From: Planctomycetota bacterium
Lineage (GTDB): Bacteria > Planctomycetota > Phycisphaerae > UBA1845 > PWPN01
Length of the DNA stretch: 11,001 nt
Assembly (NCBI GenBank): GCA_016209665.1
Contig: JACQVT010000192.1
Location: 1-11,001 of the forward strand
Direction of reading: 5' to 3'
Both the position numbers and the translations under genes were made by a program. The notes beneath the pieces were generated by a model. That model saw only the letters and a program-made list of their open reading frames with translations, had not been told where the DNA came from and made no database searches. Each line of letters opens with the position of its first letter. The stretch's first letter is position 1. This document shows positions 924-8,327 of this stretch, one piece after another.

Positions 924-1760
924 ATGCTCCCCCGATGGAGCTGGCGATGGGTGGCATTGAGCGTTGCCGGCATCCAACTGGGGGGCGCTGCGGGCTGCGC
1001 GAAGGCCCCGAGCGGCACATGGCGTTACAAGATCTACCCGGACAAGCTGCGGCAGACGATCGACTTCGAGGCGGACGTGCTGCCGGGGCAGGTGTTCAAG
1101 CTGGTGATCCCCGAGATCATCACGGACGAGCAGGAGATTCTGATTCCCTGGAGCCAGGACGTGCCGGCGTGGGACATCGGGCCCAACCGGGCGGCATGGA
1201 CCTGCGAGCGGCCGGGCATCGTCCGCATGGCGGCGGCGGTGCTGTTCGACGACGGTTTGATCGAGGCCCGGGTCGAGATCACCAACCTGTCGTCGCGGAC
1301 GTGGCACCTGGCCAACGCGTTCACGTGCTTCGCGTTCTACGAAGCGCCGCGGTTCGACAACCCCGAGCTGGACCGGATGTTCTTCCCGGTCGAGGGGCGT
1401 TGGCGGTCGGTGGCGGACCTGTTCGCCGAGAAGAGCCCCGGCGACGGGCCGTACACGTTCTTTCCGGTGCGGGGCGGGCCGCGGATCAGGGACATGATGG
1501 TCGTGCGGCTGGTCAAACAGACGCATCCGCAGATGATCGACGCCGGCGCCGGATGCGTGGTGTCGACCGATGGCGAATGGGTGGCGGGCATCAGTTGCGA
1601 GCATCCGGCCTACGTGTTCTGTAACCGCAAGGAGCGGTGCCTGCACGCCAACCCGGTGTTCGACGACGCGGAGCCGGGCGCGACCGCGCGGGCGAGCAGC
1701 TATGTGCGCATCATGCGGGGCGGCGTGGCGGAGTTCGCGAGGGCTATCGCGCGGCAATGA
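924..1760 (+). CDS. predicted lipoprotein of unknown function (278 aa)
   Basis: I do not recognise this family. The start at 924 is chosen because GGAGG at 914-918 sits 5 bases before the ATG, and because the first residues form a signal peptide: basic MLPRWSWRWV, a short hydrophobic stretch, then GAAGC with Cys25 as the probable lipid-modified residue. The lipobox has Ala rather than Leu at -3, so it is acceptable but not ideal. The frame stays open further upstream, but that part overlaps the oxidoreductase gene out of frame and is not coding. The mature part looks beta-rich, for example VRMAAAVLFDDGLIEARVEITNLSSRTWHLAN, which recalls sugar-mutarotase-like beta-sandwich proteins; that is only an impression. 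A Cys/His-containing stretch (CEHPAYVFCNRKERCLHANP) lies near the C-terminus. Its place 98 bases after a Gfo/Idh/MocA gene suggests a role in carbohydrate handling at the envelope. Confidence 0.85.
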   Translation: MLPRWSWRWVALSVAGIQLGGAAGCAKAPSGTWRYKIYPDKLRQTIDFEADVLPGQVFKLVIPEIITDEQEILIPWSQDVPAWDIGPNRAAWTCERPGIVRMAAAVLFDDGLIEARVEITNLSSRTWHLANAFTCFAFYEAPRFDNPELDRMFFPVEGRWRSVADLFAEKSPGDGPYTFFPVRGGPRIRDMMVVRLVKQTHPQMIDAGAGCVVSTDGEWVAGISCEHPAYVFCNRKERCLHANPVFDDAEPGATARASSYVRIMRGGVAEFARAIARQ

Positions 1761-2393: not shown

Positions 2394-2414
2394 GGACCGG
2401 CTGGAAGCCGGTCC
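2394..2414. repeat. REP-like short palindrome
   Basis: The sequence ggaccggct-gga-agccggtcc is a perfect 9-bp hairpin with a 3-base loop, placed between the two-way terminator and the minus-strand small gene. It has no T tract, and the terminator already explains transcription end, so it looks like a dispersed extragenic palindrome rather than a terminator. Only one copy is in the window, so the repeat status is inference. Confidence 0.45.
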
Positions 2415-2437
2415 CACACGGGTTGCAGGAGGCACTC

Positions 2438-2590
2438 TTAGTTGCCGGACGGCGTCGTATCGACCGGCCGGGTCAGGGGGGCGCGGTTCACGCGGCCCAT
2501 GTGGTGTCGCGGCAGCACGTTGCGGAGCTGCGTGACCCGGCCCCGGCGGCTCGGATTGAGCGGACGATACTTGAACAGCGGTCTGGCCAT
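2438..2590 (-). CDS. small Arg/Pro-rich basic protein (50 aa), hypothetical
   Basis: On the minus strand an ATG at 2590 opens 50 codons ending in TAA at 2438-2440. GAGGAG lies 6 bases before the ATG (2597-2602), a very good ribosome-binding site. Only 6 of the 50 codons end in A or T, although the neighbouring intergenic DNA is less G/C-rich; this supports real coding. The product has ten Arg, one Lys, two His, seven Pro and one acidic residue, with no Cys or Trp and no membrane segment, so it is strongly positively charged and could bind nucleic acid. I do not recognise the family. It lies 526 bases beyond the GNAT stop on the same strand and is followed by the two-way terminator at 2312-2352. 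It could also be a chance ORF; a conserved short homologue would settle this. Confidence 0.5.
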   Translation of the reverse strand: MARPLFKYRPLNPSRRGRVTQLRNVLPRHHMGRVNRAPLTRPVDTTPSGN

Positions 2591-2759
2591 GTGTTTCTCC
2601 TCACTCCTGGCACTTCAACCGAAGCGCCGCACACAGGCGAACGACAGATCCCGTCGAGGGGTACGATGGCAGGAAGGTGAGATCGGGGCAGCAACGGTTG
2701 CCCTCCTGAGCTGCTCAACCTTCTTATCGGCGAACCGCCTCGCAAATCATGAAAGAAGT

Positions 2760-3106
2760 AGAGGGGCCGGGAGTCTGACCGTTAGAATGGATGCCGGCCG
2801 GGCCTTCTCTTCGACCCTAGGCACCACTTTCTCCGTAGACGTTATTCCCTTGACTCGCCGGCCCCTCTCAGCCCGGCCGGCATCCGACAAACCTTTTCGT
2901 CCCGGCGGATCCGCCGCCGGGGCGGCAAGAAACCTGAAGTCACCGCAGGGATCGCCGGGGACGCAGTGGCCCGCACGATCGAACAACGGCAACGGGACGG
3001 AGTGCACTGTACGGTTGTCGATTCGTTCCGTTGCCGCCCGAGAAACCCCGACACCTCCTTTCCTTAAAACGCGCCCCACTGCGGTCCTGGCGCTCCCTGC
3101 GGTGAC
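2760..3106 (+). ncRNA. candidate large structured RNA (about 350 nt), no known class recognised
   Basis: This non-coding stretch holds five long helices. Helix A pairs 2760-2775 with 2852-2868 (16 bp, one bulge at 2857). Helix B pairs 2789-2803 with 2871-2885 (15 bp, perfect). Helix D pairs 2897-2908 with 2914-2925 (12 bp, 5-base loop). Helix P pairs 2939-2969 with 3076-3106 (29 of 31 positions paired). Helix C pairs 2987-2999 with 3024-3036 inside P. A and B cross each other, so they form a pseudoknot or two exclusive states. Positions that are not Watson-Crick in helices C, D and P are mostly G-U when the + strand is RNA (one in C, two in D, two in P) and would be A-C mismatches on the other strand; this points to + strand transcription. 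The 3' end lies 10 bases before the convergent GNAT stop codon. No clear promoter or T-tract terminator was found. RNase P, tmRNA, 6S and SRP signatures were looked for and not seen. Confidence 0.5.
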
Positions 3107-3116
3107 CGATCTCGAC

Positions 3117-3788
3117 TCAATCCGATTCTCCGTTACGGGGGGAGTCGGCGGCGTACCGCTCCGCCCAGTCGCTTCGCAGCAGGGCAAAGCGATACTCATC
3201 CACGTAGTGCCCGCCGCGGTAGTGGGCCTGCCGGGCACAGCCTTCCTGCACGAACCCGACCTTCTGGTAGGTGCGGATGGCCCGCCAGTTCTCGGCCAGC
3301 ACGCTCAGCTCGACGCGGTTGAGGTTCAGTTCCTCGAAGGCGAACTGAAGCAGCAGCCGAACCGTCTCGCGCCCGTAGCCTCGGCCCTTGGCGGCGTGCT
3401 CGCCGATGCAGATGCCCAGGACGGCGCTGCGGTTGACCGGGTCCACGCGGTGCAGGCCGGCCGAGCCGATCAGCCGGTCGCCCTGCTTGGCCACGACGCC
3501 GAACGTGTAGTCGGCAGCGGTCTTGCCCTGCGACTCGATGAACTCGCGTTCGCGGGCCGCGTTCAGCGGCGGACGATGGAGCAGGTACCGGCGGTTCACC
3601 GGGTCGTTGATCCACCGGCGGAGCAACGGCTCGTCCTCGAGTTCGAGCGGGCGGAAATAGACCCGCGGCCCCTCGCAGTACACGACCGGCTCGGCGGGGC
3701 TGGAAGCCGAGATTCTGACCCGGCTGGGCCGCAACGATGCCGCGGGCGGCCCGAGTTCGTTGGCCGGAATCGTCAATGTGCCGCTCAT
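3117..3788 (-). CDS. GNAT family N-acetyltransferase, RimJ/RimL-like (223 aa)
   Basis: The protein is a cytoplasmic acetyl-CoA-dependent N-acetyltransferase of the RimJ/RimL type. It starts its domain with VYFRPLELEDEPLLRRWINDP (residues 43-63), the usual first strand and helix. The acetyl-CoA pyrophosphate loop is KGRGYGRE (134-141). AENWRAIRTYQKVGFVQEG (165-183) is the C-terminal signature with Asn167 and Tyr174. About 40 residues before the domain form a variable N-terminal extension. I start at the ATG at 3788 rather than at 3794, because GGAGG (3796-3800) is 7 bases from the former and only 1 from the latter. The acceptor could be a protein N-terminus, an amino sugar or a small amine; the sequence does not say. 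The last codons overlap a 10-bp hairpin (3122-3148). Confidence 0.92.
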   Translation of the reverse strand: MSGTLTIPANELGPPAASLRPSRVRISASSPAEPVVYCEGPRVYFRPLELEDEPLLRRWINDPVNRRYLLHRPPLNAAREREFIESQGKTAADYTFGVVAKQGDRLIGSAGLHRVDPVNRSAVLGICIGEHAAKGRGYGRETVRLLLQFAFEELNLNRVELSVLAENWRAIRTYQKVGFVQEGCARQAHYRGGHYVDEYRFALLRSDWAERYAADSPRNGESD

Positions 3789-3795
3789 GTCCATA

Positions 3796-3800
3796 CCTCC
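3796..3800 (-). promoter_or_regulatory. Shine-Dalgarno site deciding the GNAT start
   Basis: CCTCC on the + strand reads GGAGG on the minus strand. It lies 7 bases from the ATG at 3788 and 1 base from the ATG at 3794, so translation most likely begins at 3788. Confidence 0.65.
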
Positions 3801-3867
3801 CAGCGATGGCGCACGGATTCCCCGCCCGCGCCGTAAGCGCTGTAAGAAACCACCAGCATTCAGCGGA

Positions 3868-3896
3868 ACACGGTTGCACCGGCCTCTGAACCGTGT
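3868..3896. other. inverted repeat upstream of the GNAT gene, possible operator
   Basis: acacggtt (3868-3875) and aaccgtgt (3889-3896) are perfect 8-bp inverted arms separated by 13 bases, about 80 bases upstream of the GNAT start. The spacing suits a dimeric regulator, but nothing else supports this. No convincing -10/-35 pair was found next to it. Confidence 0.25.
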
Positions 3897-4161
3897 ATGA
3901 TGATCACGTCAGGACCGCAAGACTCCTCGAGTTTTCGTGTTCCTGCCCGGCAGCGGTCGTCACCACCGATCGCTGCCAACTCTTTTTCATTCGCTCGACT
4001 CACTCTCACCCGTCGGTCGCGGACAGTCTTTGCGTTGCCGACAAACCCTTGATCCTTCGTTCCCTCATCGCTTCGATGCCCCGGGACAAGCCCGGCGGCT
4101 CGTGGTTGACCATCGATCGGGCTGTTGGTTTCAGGACGAACCTGAAAACGTTGTGTCCAAC
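3897..4161. other. non-coding stretch between GNAT and the small Cys-protein unit
   Basis: No supported gene is visible on either strand. Open frames here lack ribosome-binding sites and recognisable protein features. The only structures are small: ccggg/cccgg around 4080-4095, and tttcagg-acgaa-cctgaaa (4129-4147), a 7-bp hairpin just past the terminator of the minus-strand small unit. The base composition is lower in G+C than in the flanking genes. Confidence 0.5.
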
Positions 4162-4197
4162 AAAAAAGCCCTGCAACCTTCTGGGGCCGCAGGGCTT
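4162..4197 (-). terminator. intrinsic terminator of the small minus-strand unit
   Basis: Read on the minus strand, aagccctgc (4197-4189) pairs with gcagggctt (4174-4166) over a 14-base loop. The stem runs straight into six T (AAAAAA at 4162-4167 on +). This is a textbook Rho-independent terminator. It ends a transcript that would start near 4395. Confidence 0.85.
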
Positions 4198-4223
4198 ATG
4201 ATTTCCTCGGAAACCAGCTTACC

Positions 4224-4364
4224 CTACGGCCCATCGTCACCATCGATGCACAGGCCGCGGAAATAGACCTTCGTCGTATTGGCGGCCTGCTCCGCGCACA
4301 TCGGGTGCACGACCGGCGAGGTCGTCTGCGTGAGGCACCAAACTGTCGAGGTCAAGCTGGTCAT
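4224..4364 (-). CDS. small Cys-containing protein (46 aa), hypothetical
   Basis: On the minus strand an ATG at 4364 opens 46 codons ending in TAG at 4224-4226. The ORF lies inside a self-contained transcription unit: promoter 4402-4429, expected start near 4395, terminator 4162-4197. Only 7 of 46 codons end in A or T, as in the real genes nearby. The product has Cys10, Cys23 and Cys39, with His20 in HPMC and a later VYFRGLCID. That spacing loosely recalls small metal-binding YHS/TRASH-like segments, but it is too short and too divergent to claim. There is no good Shine-Dalgarno site before the ATG, and no signal peptide or membrane helix. The alternative is that the roughly 230-nt transcript is a small RNA and the ORF incidental. 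Confidence 0.5.
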   Translation of the reverse strand: MTSLTSTVWCLTQTTSPVVHPMCAEQAANTTKVYFRGLCIDGDDGP

Positions 4365-4401: not shown

Positions 4402-4429
4402 AGTATAGCACAATCATCGGACGTGTCAA
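4402..4429 (-). promoter_or_regulatory. near-consensus sigma-70 promoter for the small minus-strand unit
   Basis: On the minus strand TTGACA (4429-4424) and TATACT (4407-4402) are separated by 16 bases. The -35 is a perfect match and the -10 differs in one base. Transcription would begin near 4395, about 30 bases before the ATG at 4364. It is the best promoter seen in this GC-rich window and suggests strong expression. Confidence 0.8.
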
Positions 4430-4591
4430 GGCCAAACGTGAAAAACATTTGAAGTTCAGCAGATTGTCGGGAATCCGAGGTCAAAGCCCGGGGGCGGCCA
4501 ACCCGGGGCGGGCGTGGGATAGGCTCGCGGCGTGCGGCCGTCTTTGTCACGGGGGGTAGAAATGGTTAAGATGAATGAGTTGGCCGCCAGT

Positions 4592-4616
4592 GGGGACCGG
4601 GGGGCGGGCCGGCGGG
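4592..4616 (+). other. G-quadruplex motif in the leader of the 2-oxoacid oxidoreductase gene
   Basis: Four G tracts, GGGG, GGGGGG, GGG and GGG, are separated by loops of 3, 1 and 5 bases, fitting the G3+N1-7 rule. It lies on the coding strand 48 bases before the predicted start. Two further GGG tracts follow in the adjacent tandem repeat. Folding in RNA or DNA is inferred. Confidence 0.45.
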
Positions 4617-4637
4617 TTCAGGCGGGTTCAGGCGGGT
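4611..4637 (+). repeat. tandem repeat of a 10-mer, 2.7 copies
   Basis: ggcgggttca occurs at 4611-4620 and 4621-4630 and is followed by ggcgggt at 4631-4637. It sits just upstream of the predicted start codon at 4665, where no Shine-Dalgarno site is seen. Its copy number could vary by slippage. Confidence 0.75.
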
Positions 4638-4664
4638 GCGGAACGTGGCGCGAGTTCCGTTTTC

Positions 4665-7600
4665 ATGAGAAAGCGAATACCCCAGAAATTCCTCCGCGGC
4701 AGCGGCGTGGACGTGTTCAACGGCAACGAGCTGCTGTTCAAGGGCGGGCTGGAGACCGACGGCGGCGTGCACCTGATGACGGGCTATCCGGGCTCGCCGG
4801 TGGCGACGTTCTTCGACGTCATGGCCGCCTGCGCGCCGCTGCTGAAGGAGCGGGGCATCGAAGGCCGGCTGGCCAACAACGAGGCCCTGGCGGTGGCGGC
4901 GGTCAACGGCTCGCAGATGGGGCCGCTGCGGGCGATGGCCGTGTTCAAGTCCGTCGGGCTGCACGTGGCGAGCGATGCCCTGGCGTTGGGCAGCCTGGCC
5001 GGGGTCCACCCGGAAGGGGGAGCGGTCATCGTCATCGGAGACGACCCGTGGAGCGAGTCGACGCAGGTGCCGGCGGACTCGCGCTTCCTGCTGCGGCATC
5101 TGTTCGTGCCGGTGCTCGAGCCCAGCACCCCGCAGGAGATAAAGGATTACGTCGGGATCGCGTTCGATCTGTCGCGGGCCGCCAACCTGTACCTGGGCTA
5201 CATCATCACGACCACGCTGGCCGACGGCGGAGGTACGGTGACGTGTCGGCCCAATCACTACCCGCTGACCAACCGCAACCATCCCTTCGAGCTGAACACG
5301 GGCCTGCTCAACCTCGAGAAGACGGTGCTGCTTCCGCCGCGGACGGGGCGAAACGAAGTCGAGATGCCCGAGCGGTACGAGCGGTTGCATCGCGAGGCGG
5401 CCCGGTTGGGGCTGAACCGGCTGATCGACGTCGAGGGGCAGGACGAGGTCCTGATCGTCACCAGCGGGATGGCGTACCAGTACGTGCAACAGGCGCTGGC
5501 GAACGTCGGCCTCGAGGGCCGGGTACCGATCCTCAAGCTGGCGATCACGTTTCCGCTGGACCGCGGGCAGATCGAGCCGCTGCTGGCGCGGTTCGACCAC
5601 GTGGTGGTCGTCGAGGAGCGGCGGTCGTTCATCGAGGAGCAGATCGCCGAGATCGCCGTGCGGTTCCGTCAGCGGACTCACTCGGCGGTGGCCGACATCT
5701 GGGGCAAGCAGTTTCCGGCGGACGCGAGCGGCGTCCCGTCGGCGCTGGGGTTGAACGCCTCGATCGTGGCCGACCGGCTGGGACGGTTCCTGCGGGCGAT
5801 CGCCTCGCCGCTGGCCCGGCGGGCGGCGGCGGGCATCGAGGCGGAACTGCGGCTGATCGGCGAGGCGGGTCGGCTGGACGCCCAGATCGCAGCCCGGACG
5901 CCGACGTTCTGCCCGGGCTGTCCACACCGCGACTCGTCGAACGTGCTGCTGGAGATCAAGAAGCAGTTCGCCGACGAGGCCTACATGCGACGGCGGCACC
6001 GACGGGGGGCGGTGGACCTGGTGTTCCACGGCGACACCGGCTGCTACACGATGCTGATGTTCGAGCCGAACTCGACGCTGATGCACAACTACTCGGGCAT
6101 GGGCCTGGGCGGGGGAACGGGCAGCGGGATCGACCCGTTCATCACGAACAAGCAAGTCGTCTTCATGGGCGACTCGACGTTCTTCCACTCGGGACTGACG
6201 GCAATCAGCCATTCGGTCGCGGGCCGGCAGGACCTGCTGTACATCATCCTGGCTAACGACACGACGGCGATGACCGGCCACCAGCCGCTGCCGACGCTGA
6301 ACCGGGACCTGCTCGGCCGGCCGATCATGGCCCAGGACATCGAGCGGACGGTCAAGGCCCTGGTCGGCCCGAACGTGCCGGTCATGCGGATCGACCCGTC
6401 GCATCGTCCGGCGTACAAGGCGATGTTGGAGAAGGCGATCCTCACCGACGGCGTGAAGATCCTGATCGCCGACAAGGAATGCGGGATCACCTACAACCGC
6501 CGCCAGATGCGGCAGGAGCGAGCGGAACTCGGCAAGGTGGGTTTCCTGGCCCGCAAGACGTACATGAACGTCACGCCGGAGGTCTGCGAGTTCTGCCTCG
6601 AGTGCACGAACAAGACGGGCTGCCCCGGCCTGCGGATCGAATCGACGGATTACGGTCCGAAGATCGGCACGGACCTGTCGTGGTGCGTGAATGACGGCGG
6701 CTGCGCCAAGATCGACGCCTGCCCGTCGTTCGAGGAAGTCACGATCATCCGGCGGCAGGCCCCGACGCCGCGTGGCCACAACATCAACCTCGACGACATC
6801 CCCGAGCCGACGCACGTGTGCGGTGGGAGCGGCCGGTCGTTCGGCGGCGATGCCTGGCGGGCGTGGGTTGCCGGTGTCGGCGGGATGGGGATCGGCACGG
6901 TGACGAGCATCCTGGTGCACGCGGGCCGACACGAGGGCTACCACGTCCAGTTCAGCGACAAGAAAGGGCTGGCGATCCGCAACGGCGGGGTTTACTCGCA
7001 GCTCGTGTACAGTCGGCCCGATCGACCCGTCGGCATGACGGTGGGCTACGGCAAGGCCGACTTGCTGCTGGGTGTCGATCTGCTGGAGGCGGTGCGAGCG
7101 GTGGACGCCAGCGCGCCGTTCCGCGTGGCCGACCCGCGGCGGACCGCCGTGGTGGTGAACGTCGACTGCACGCCAACGATCCTGATGCTCATGGGCCGCG
7201 AGAACATCGACCCCGACGAGCTGCAGACGGCACTGCACCGAGCGACGCGGGCCGACCGGTATTTTGCGGCCCGGGTGTCGTCGCTGTGCGAGCGGATTTT
7301 CGGCACCAAGCTGTACGTCAACATCGTCATGCTGGGCGTGGCCTACCAGCGGGGGCTGATCCCGGTGTCGCTCGAGGCGATCCGCGACGGCATCCGCAGG
7401 TCGGTGCGGGCGGATCTGGAGAAGAACCTGCGGGCGTTCGACGTCGGGCGCAAGTTCGTCACCAACCCCGAGTTATTCGGGGAGATCTTCAGCGACAGCC
7501 GGTTATCGGACTCGCTGGCCCGGATCGTGCGGGCCAAGGCGGCGTACCTCAACATGCGGCTGCTGGGGTCTCGGCGGGCTTTGCGCGGCGACCGGCCCGG

Positions 7601-8327
7601 CGCCGGCGGCAAGCGGCGGCTGCCCGACACCAAGCTGGCCCGGGCCTACAAGCACATGGTCTACACCACGCTGCGGGCCTGCCGCGAACTCGATCGGCAG
7701 ACGATGCGGGACATCGCGATCCGCATCTACGACCTGATCCAGTGGGGCGGCATCCGCTACGCTCAGCGGTACGTCGAGCGGGTGCGGCGGACGTTCCTGG
7801 CCGACCATGAGAAACACGACTTTGCGGCCACGCGGGCGGTCGTCTGGAACCTCGCCAAGCTGATGCTGATCAAGGACGAGTTCTACGTGCCGCACCTGCT
7901 GACGAGCTACGAGAAGTTTCGCCGCGACCGCCAACGCTACAACGTCAACCCCGCCAACGGCGACCGGATCAAGTATCGGCGGACGTTCCATCCGCGGTTC
8001 TTCGGGCGCAAGTTCAACCTCCGGGTACCGCACTGGACGTTGTACATCCTGCGGAACCTGCGCTTCCTGCGGCACGTTCTACCGCTCTATCGACGGGAGG
8101 AGCGGCAGTTCCTGGCCTGGTACGAGCGGATCGTCGACGGCCTGCAGCTCAACGATGACGCCACGTACTCCCTGTGGGTCGAACTGCTCCAAGCGGTGCG
8201 CACCGTGAACGGGTACGCGGAGTACCGTGTTCCCCGCATGGACGCCGCCCGGGCCCGCGTCGACCAACTCATGACGACAATCCGCCGGATCGAGGGCGGT
8301 GGCGTCCGCACGGCGATGACGGGGTGA
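4665..8327 (+). CDS. fused indolepyruvate:ferredoxin oxidoreductase-type enzyme (IorA-IorB-DUF6537 architecture, 1220 aa)
   Basis: The enzyme class oxidatively decarboxylates an aryl or other 2-oxoacid with CoA to an acyl-CoA, passing electrons to ferredoxin in the cytoplasm. Domains in order: N-terminal oxoacid:ferredoxin-oxidoreductase domain with GYPGSP (40-45) and NNEA with Glu73; TPP domain with IorA-type CPGCPHR (416-422), GDTGC (456-460) and the cofactor motif GDS-X26-N (502-531); Fe-S segment with Cys641, 644, 647, 653 and Cys674, 680, 686, ending CPSF; IorB-like gamma domain starting GVGGMGIG (737-744); and a C-terminal region with KDEFYV (1070-1075) typical of DUF6537. The fused order is known from proteobacterial family members. 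The ATG at 4665 is preferred because family similarity begins just after it; an in-frame ATG at 4575 would add 30 residues that look non-native. No Shine-Dalgarno site precedes 4665. The true 2-oxoacid is not determined; indolepyruvate is the family default. Confidence 0.93.
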   Translation: MRKRIPQKFLRGSGVDVFNGNELLFKGGLETDGGVHLMTGYPGSPVATFFDVMAACAPLLKERGIEGRLANNEALAVAAVNGSQMGPLRAMAVFKSVGLHVASDALALGSLAGVHPEGGAVIVIGDDPWSESTQVPADSRFLLRHLFVPVLEPSTPQEIKDYVGIAFDLSRAANLYLGYIITTTLADGGGTVTCRPNHYPLTNRNHPFELNTGLLNLEKTVLLPPRTGRNEVEMPERYERLHREAARLGLNRLIDVEGQDEVLIVTSGMAYQYVQQALANVGLEGRVPILKLAITFPLDRGQIEPLLARFDHVVVVEERRSFIEEQIAEIAVRFRQRTHSAVADIWGKQFPADASGVPSALGLNASIVADRLGRFLRAIASPLARRAAAGIEAELRLIGEAGRLDAQIAARTPTFCPGCPHRDSSNVLLEIKKQFADEAYMRRRHRRGAVDLVFHGDTGCYTMLMFEPNSTLMHNYSGMGLGGGTGSGIDPFITNKQVVFMGDSTFFHSGLTAISHSVAGRQDLLYIILANDTTAMTGHQPLPTLNRDLLGRPIMAQDIERTVKALVGPNVPVMRIDPSHRPAYKAMLEKAILTDGVKILIADKECGITYNRRQMRQERAELGKVGFLARKTYMNVTPEVCEFCLECTNKTGCPGLRIESTDYGPKIGTDLSWCVNDGGCAKIDACPSFEEVTIIRRQAPTPRGHNINLDDIPEPTHVCGGSGRSFGGDAWRAWVAGVGGMGIGTVTSILVHAGRHEGYHVQFSDKKGLAIRNGGVYSQLVYSRPDRPVGMTVGYGKADLLLGVDLLEAVRAVDASAPFRVADPRRTAVVVNVDCTPTILMLMGRENIDPDELQTALHRATRADRYFAARVSSLCERIFGTKLYVNIVMLGVAYQRGLIPVSLEAIRDGIRRSVRADLEKNLRAFDVGRKFVTNPELFGEIFSDSRLSDSLARIVRAKAAYLNMRLLGSRRALRGDRPGAGGKRRLPDTKLARAYKHMVYTTLRACRELDRQTMRDIAIRIYDLIQWGGIRYAQRYVERVRRTFLADHEKHDFAATRAVVWNLAKLMLIKDEFYVPHLLTSYEKFRRDRQRYNVNPANGDRIKYRRTFHPRFFGRKFNLRVPHWTLYILRNLRFLRHVLPLYRREERQFLAWYERIVDGLQLNDDATYSLWVELLQAVRTVNGYAEYRVPRMDAARARVDQLMTTIRRIEGGGVRTAMTG

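Follow-up and report, generated by a model that had tools for sequence, protein, structure and literature searches.

A GNAT acetyltransferase gene is followed by a conserved element that, by its base pairing, is an RNA on the minus strand, the strand of that gene. Two helices, A and B, of 14 to 17 bp each are interleaved in it as an H-type pseudoknot, and an unpaired stretch between their arms includes an invariant 19-mer. Across genera, conservation covers positions 2760 to 2885 (about 126 nt) of the window, by which we mean the whole stretch of DNA analysed, an entire contig of 11,001 bases (G000:C43). The original prediction of an undescribed structured RNA in this region was borne out by compensatory changes across three genera and by the lack of a match in Rfam; of the three refuting conditions named with it, covariation in homologues and comparison with Rfam were examined, and both left it standing. 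The features on which the argument rests are the following.

3117 to 3794, minus strand: GNAT acetyltransferase gene, with the element in its 3' UTR (PF13302, E 2.4e-26)
2871 to 2885, minus strand: helix B, 5' arm, pairing with 2789 to 2803 (14 to 16 bp in four genomes)
2852 to 2868, minus strand: helix A, 5' arm, with one bulged base in the window, pairing with 2760 to 2775
2810 to 2843, minus strand: 34-base stretch, identical in the window and genome G001 (gap alignment with locus L005)
2810 to 2828, minus strand: invariant core AGTGGTGCCTAGGGTCGAA, identical in four genomes of three genera
2789 to 2803, minus strand: helix B, 3' arm, pairing with 2871 to 2885
2760 to 2775, minus strand: helix A, 3' arm, pairing with 2852 to 2868
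2750 to 2759, minus strand: T-rich tract ACTTCTTTCA after helix A, 5 T of 10

Along the minus strand, 5' to 3', these parts follow one another as the 5' arm of B, the 5' arm of A, an unpaired stretch containing the invariant 19-mer AGUGGUGCCUAGGGUCGAA, the 3' arm of B, the 3' arm of A, and the T-rich tract. Each of the two interleaved helices is kept by compensatory change. The linkers between the unbroken helices measure 1–4 nt (L1), 38–53 nt (L2) and 7–18 nt (L3), and the arms of helix A stand 76 bases apart in the window. Neither the interleaving nor the invariant core was part of the original prediction; a nested minimum-energy fold can contain no more than one of the two helices. Both may coexist in one molecule, in which, by geometric reasoning, they would fit only side by side. 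In the gap alignment, positions 2810 to 2843 showed no difference to G001 while their flanks diverged widely. The H-type pseudoknots of bacterial regulatory RNAs likewise consist of two interleaved helices with unpaired linkers; the present element differs in its unbroken helices of 14–17 bp, its middle linker of 38–53 nt, and its position behind a gene rather than before one.

The pairing was tabulated in four genomes: the window's own, G001, G007 and G005. All 118 tabulated pairs of A and B form (110 Watson-Crick, 8 G-U, and no A-C when read on the minus strand), and changes on both sides were found at 24 of 31 positions, 10 of 15 in helix B and 14 of 16 in helix A. For this count the arms were entered in a fixed register with one bulged base omitted, which makes it a tabulation and not a blind test. 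The helix letters of G007 and G005 differ almost throughout, and still 14 or 15 bp remain unbroken. For helix B we also used a model-made alignment (A6), in which all 58 of 58 cells were paired and both sides had changed in 10 of 15 pairs; none of 500 shuffles scored as high on any of five measures, on an alignment that was fitted to helix B and so leans towards it. Helix A was absent from that model, and its pairing in G007 and G005 was therefore not built in. A MAFFT alignment (A5) misaligned the helices and was excluded from the counts.

The RNA had originally been placed on the plus strand and given an extent of about 350 nt (2760 to 3106), with helix P as one of its helices. The helices then listed are present, and helix P was confirmed with arms of 36 nt. 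In the window's genus it lies between the element and the GNAT gene, in the window together with two smaller hairpins.

3071 to 3106, minus strand: helix P, 5' arm, 10 nt after the GNAT stop codon, with a counterpart in G001 only
2939 to 2974, minus strand: helix P, 3' arm, pairing with 3071 to 3106
2982 to 3036, no strand assigned: hairpin D, inside helix P (arms 2982 to 2999 and 3023 to 3036), seen in the fold of the window
2898 to 2925, no strand assigned: hairpin C, seen in the fold of the window

The arms of helix P are 83% complementary, and its counterpart in G001 is of similar length, with both-side changes seen by eye in these two sequences only and strand counts that point clearly neither way. 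Helix P was seen only within the window's genus, in two species; we therefore rejected it as the heart of the element, and it is best seen as genus-specific matter within the same 3' UTR. The extent given earlier shrinks accordingly to the 126 nt conserved across genera. The plus-strand assignment, which had been argued from G-U pairs, was wrong. Helices P, C and D together have 4 positions that are G-U on the plus strand against 2 that are G-U on the minus strand in the window, too few to decide, and in the relatives the sign is reversed: helix P of G001 has 2 G-U pairs on the plus strand against 3 on the minus strand, and helices A and B have the 8 G-U and no A-C on the minus strand given above. 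Folding energies by themselves favour the plus strand, since region 2730 to 3120 folds better than shuffles with z -5.96 on that strand (0 of 100 as good) and z -2.44 on the minus strand (1 of 100 as good). A plus-strand RNA was rejected on the pair counts despite these energies.

A coding explanation was considered and set aside. More than one frame is open in the window and in G001, yet the encoded peptides agree only across the invariant nucleotides. A mini-ORF that runs out in the core (ESGA-stop) opens with a start codon in G005 and G007, whereas the window and G001 lack one.

The distribution of the element was determined with a covariance model built from the window and G001, in which helix B is the only helix (R1), scanned against 114 genomes of the order. 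Matches at E≤1 occurred in 14 of these, and beyond the model sequences only G007 (E 1.7e-6) and G005 (E 1.6e-4) stood out, the remainder lying at E 0.097 or weaker. G007 and G005 belong to the window's family and to other genera, and both contain AGUGGUGCCUAGGGUCGAA exactly. The carriers are thus four genomes of one family in three genera, two of them in one genus; the element was found in 4 of 13 family genomes, with one copy in each. Allowing up to 2 mismatches, the 19-mer was found in these four only among the 114 order genomes, and allowing up to 1 mismatch in the same four among 397 class genomes. A second model (R2), built from the four elements and scanned against 392 phylum genomes, returned two at E≤0.1, namely the window's genome and G351 (L062, E 0.086). 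At G351 the match retains 14 of the 19 core bases, is without a GNAT gene in its vicinity and falls within a long open frame of the opposite strand; it was taken as chance, as were the 12 weaker R1 places (L033–L044); these 13 loci have no GNAT gene, a best core match of 11 to 15 of 19, and no interleaved geometry. A match on an actinobacterial contig (L028), which extends to 20 bases with a best 34-mer match of 24/34, was likewise taken as chance. Model scans of more than 40 genomes were run with strict filters, under which weak matches are lost, and the class and phylum genome sets are draws from larger groups. The exact 18-mer used on genome and viral contigs detects the genus-type core (GGAGAAAG...) but not that of G005 and G007, and a class scan with a 32-mer (198 genomes) is narrow in the same way.

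The geometry was also sought directly, as two unbroken helices of at least 11 pairs with linkers of 0–6, 30–70 and 1–25 nt, on both strands. Only the four elements were recovered from 45 loci (205,872 bases on each of 2 strands), from which 24 loci repeating the four places had been dropped beforehand and some of which overlap each other. The geometry was absent from 617,616 bases of first-order Markov sequence and from 13 further GNAT loci of the class (L009–L021). Rfam 15 gave no match in the window at E≤5, and in five relative loci at E≤1 only one weak match, far from the element: L045:14085-14188 (minus strand) resembled the Chloroflexi-1 RNA family at 28.7 bits against a cut-off of 80. 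AGAGUGGUGCC partly resembles the T-box sequence; the T-box model of Rfam gave no match. In the portions available of the literature on planctomycete structured RNAs, planctomycete attenuation and 3'-UTR-derived pseudoknots (including PMC2864571, PMC4833913 and PMC6310831), with most subscription journals outside the coverage, the element is not described. For the core letters, the matches listed were all studies of plants, animals, patients or cell culture.

Folded single-stranded DNA also tolerates G-T pairs, and pair counts alone thus do not separate RNA from DNA. A site acting as folded single-stranded DNA or in recombination, comparable to integron attC, would suit a position directly behind one gene in otherwise differing surroundings. 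Integron attC ends follow the consensus RYYYAAC / GTTRRRY, and such ends were not seen by eye in the 19-nt core. Integron attC arrays have several copies per genome, but the core occurs once per genome even with up to 2 mismatches allowed, and the T-rich tract fits transcription. The gap gave no plasmid or phage match and the core none in viral contigs, on which grounds a mobile element was also rejected. We regard a DNA site as very improbable and retain an RNA read from the minus strand.

In all four carriers the element lies downstream of the GNAT stop codon on the same strand, at 234 nt (window), 215 nt (G001), 28 nt (G007) and 58 nt (G005) from the first base of that codon. The gene itself runs from 3794 to 3117. 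The nearest solved chain to its protein, by sequence likeness, is named an aminoglycoside acetyltransferase (E 8e-18), with spermidine acetyltransferases next. The gene-free gap that follows had been noted before, at 526 bases; it is present and measures 525 (2592 to 3116), ending at a small minus-strand ORF (2591 to 2442). In the window and G001 the element is followed by this small ORF and in G005 by a PIN/TRAM-like gene, each in the orientation of the GNAT gene; in G007 a convergent agmatine-deiminase-like gene comes next (names of the latter two by eye). Because the genes after it differ, the element is to be assigned to the GNAT gene rather than to the following gene as a leader. The small ORF, which is basic and 50 codons long, is conserved in both members of the genus and present in 2 of 13 family genomes; it had no homologue in the protein collection, and for these reasons it was rejected as a regulated gene. 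Elsewhere on the contig, an ORF at 924 to 1760 (plus strand) matched nothing in Pfam or NCBIfam, and 4575 to 8327 (plus strand) encodes a single-chain indolepyruvate ferredoxin oxidoreductase-like protein with a C-terminal DUF6537.

Ten GNAT places were found in 9 of the 13 family genomes: 4 with the element, 5 without it (one of these a remote match, 32% identical) and 1, in G002, that ends at a contig edge. With half of the places lacking it, the element is not needed by every GNAT gene of the group. On a GNAT tree of 23 rows, in which most forks are open, it requires 2 changes, and it may have a single origin.

The tracts directly after the 3' arm of helix A are ACTTCTTTCA in the window, CGCGTTTTAT in G001, TTCTTTTTAT in G007 and ACTTCTTTTT in G005, with 5, 5, 8 and 7 T of 10, respectively. 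The share of 10-mers from the same loci that are as T-rich is 0.022, 0.018, 0.0005 and 0.0021 in the same order; in the first two genomes the tract is weak. A G+C-rich helix followed directly by a T-rich tract was thus found in all four genomes, and helix A with its tract resembles an intrinsic terminator whose loop is very long. The convergent next gene in G007 fits a terminator as well. A scan with loops of 3–8 nt gave 4 sites, and helix A was not among them. Bacterial intrinsic (Rho-independent) terminators share with helix A the G+C-rich helix and T-rich tract behind a gene, whereas helix A spans a long stretch with the core and the 3' arm of B, is interleaved with a second long helix, and encloses a core that does not vary.

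We propose that this region, read on the minus strand, would be the 3' untranslated end of the GNAT mRNA. Helix B would form first, and helix A would close through the loop of B while the last part is transcribed, giving the H-type pseudoknot. Helix A and the T-rich tract would then act as an intrinsic terminator and leave a stable mRNA 3' end, and the pseudoknot would present the invariant 19-nt single strand as a putative binding site, whose partner may be a protein, another RNA or the ribosome. Binding there would tune termination or stability of the GNAT message. Termination leaves 19 unchanging unpaired bases unexplained, for which a binding site is the simplest inference. Transcription, termination and any role of the core are inferred throughout, and we give about an even chance to the reading as a whole, a pseudoknotted, self-terminating 3' end of the GNAT mRNA with the core as a binding site. 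A bolder version is possible but doubtful: the long-stem pseudoknot would be a new class of bacterial RNA with two tasks, ending the mRNA and exposing an invariant 19-nt sensor or seed. It would thereby couple the 3' end of an acetyltransferase message with an attenuated leader to some partner, be it a protein, an RNA, the ribosome or a metabolite.

An unpaired core that stays invariant amid changing surroundings, and a 3' end resembling a terminator, would also be expected of a 3'-UTR-derived small RNA, either processed out of the GNAT mRNA or transcribed from a promoter of its own, with the core as seed for targets in trans. Such RNAs share with the element the position at an mRNA end, the terminator-like end and a conserved unpaired stretch; the element differs in that it is not known to yield a separate transcript or to act on a target. 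No sigma-70-type promoter was found in 2400 to 4250, no second copy or complement of the 19-mer exists in the four genomes with up to 2 mismatches, and the core pairs with the leader of its own gene no better than shuffles do (fractions of 0.30, 0.08, 0.40 and 0.68 of 300 were as low). We consider a small RNA unlikely. Several riboswitch- and ribozyme-type RNAs are pseudoknots with an invariant unpaired core, and the core could by this likeness be the binding site of a riboswitch, ribozyme or other ligand-binding fold. The helices of such folds are usually short and irregular, whereas those found here are unbroken over 14–17 bp; moreover, Rfam gave no match, and the carriers have no downstream gene in common (small ORF, PIN/TRAM-like, convergent gene). 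A ligand-binding fold is thus improbable in our view.

At its other end the GNAT gene has a predicted leader attenuator.

4402 to 4429, minus strand: promoter-like TTGACA-16-TATACT upstream of the leader (by eye)
4224 to 4364, minus strand: 46-codon leader ORF ending in Gly-Pro-UAG
4221 to 4232, minus strand: antiterminator strand GGGCCGTAGGGT over the leader stop codon, with 12 contiguous pairs to the terminator 5' arm
4162 to 4197, minus strand: leader terminator hairpin and T-run (terminator scan)

The sequence GGGCCGUAGGGU, which surrounds the leader stop codon, is able to form 12 bp with the terminator 5' arm. Similar leader attenuators were seen upstream of GNAT genes at L005, L045, L046, L055–L058, L009, L010, L016 and L063. 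Upstream regions of 23 GNAT loci were examined, and 11 had a terminator or the pattern while 12 had neither (one of the latter offering only 374 bases). In a tabulation of 13 loci, at least 9 contiguous pairs between the stop-codon region and the terminator 5' arm were found in 10, the others being G002, G003 and G080. A Pro-stop leader end was found in 11 of the 13, 8 by script and 3 by eye, the script having used the wrong ORF frame for G005, G007 and G012 and G181 being unsettled; the leader of G002 ends in Ala-stop. Two of the 13 leaders, those of G017 and G008, were among the 6 matches of a pattern search in 61 genomes. In G017 a GNAT gene stands behind the leader; G008 (L064, G008:C50) shows the same leader pattern with no GNAT gene on the stretch examined.

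Ribosome-dependent attenuation of hflXr is reported to work through a small ORF with alternative antiterminator and terminator (PMC6310831). In its sequence the GNAT leader has the same anatomy as this attenuation of resistance genes; it differs in its Gly-Pro-stop end, and it is a 5' feature separate from the pseudoknot. The leader anatomy, together with an aminoglycoside acetyltransferase as the nearest solved chain, suggests that the GNAT gene may be switched on when translation is disturbed.

The core and the antiterminator strand look alike by eye, and we considered whether the two ends of the gene are linked: the core (GGUGCCUAGGGU) would mimic the antiterminator strand (GGGCC(G)UAGGGU), pair with the terminator 5' arm and keep the gene on. 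The leader of G002 contains GGGGCCTAGGGT, and its match to the core was equalled by only 3 of 300 shuffles. The best match in the carriers themselves, however, was at chance level (126, 134, 223 and 50 of 300 shuffles as good), duplex energies were ordinary in all four, and changes in the terminator arm of G007 are not followed by its core. Leader mimicry was rejected because the four carriers did not rise above chance, and we rate it as highly unlikely.

If the reading of the element as a pseudoknotted, self-terminating mRNA 3' end is right, it would add an undescribed conserved RNA element to a little-studied branch of the Planctomycetota. Here an intrinsic terminator would be formed by the second helix of a long pseudoknot whose single-stranded core is fixed, and such a design is missed by terminator scans with short loops and by nested folds. 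The element would allow pseudoknot closure to be tested as a transcription terminator, and the 19-mer could be used to seek a binding partner. Together with the predicted attenuator in the leader, the element seems to give a single small gene RNA devices at both of its ends.
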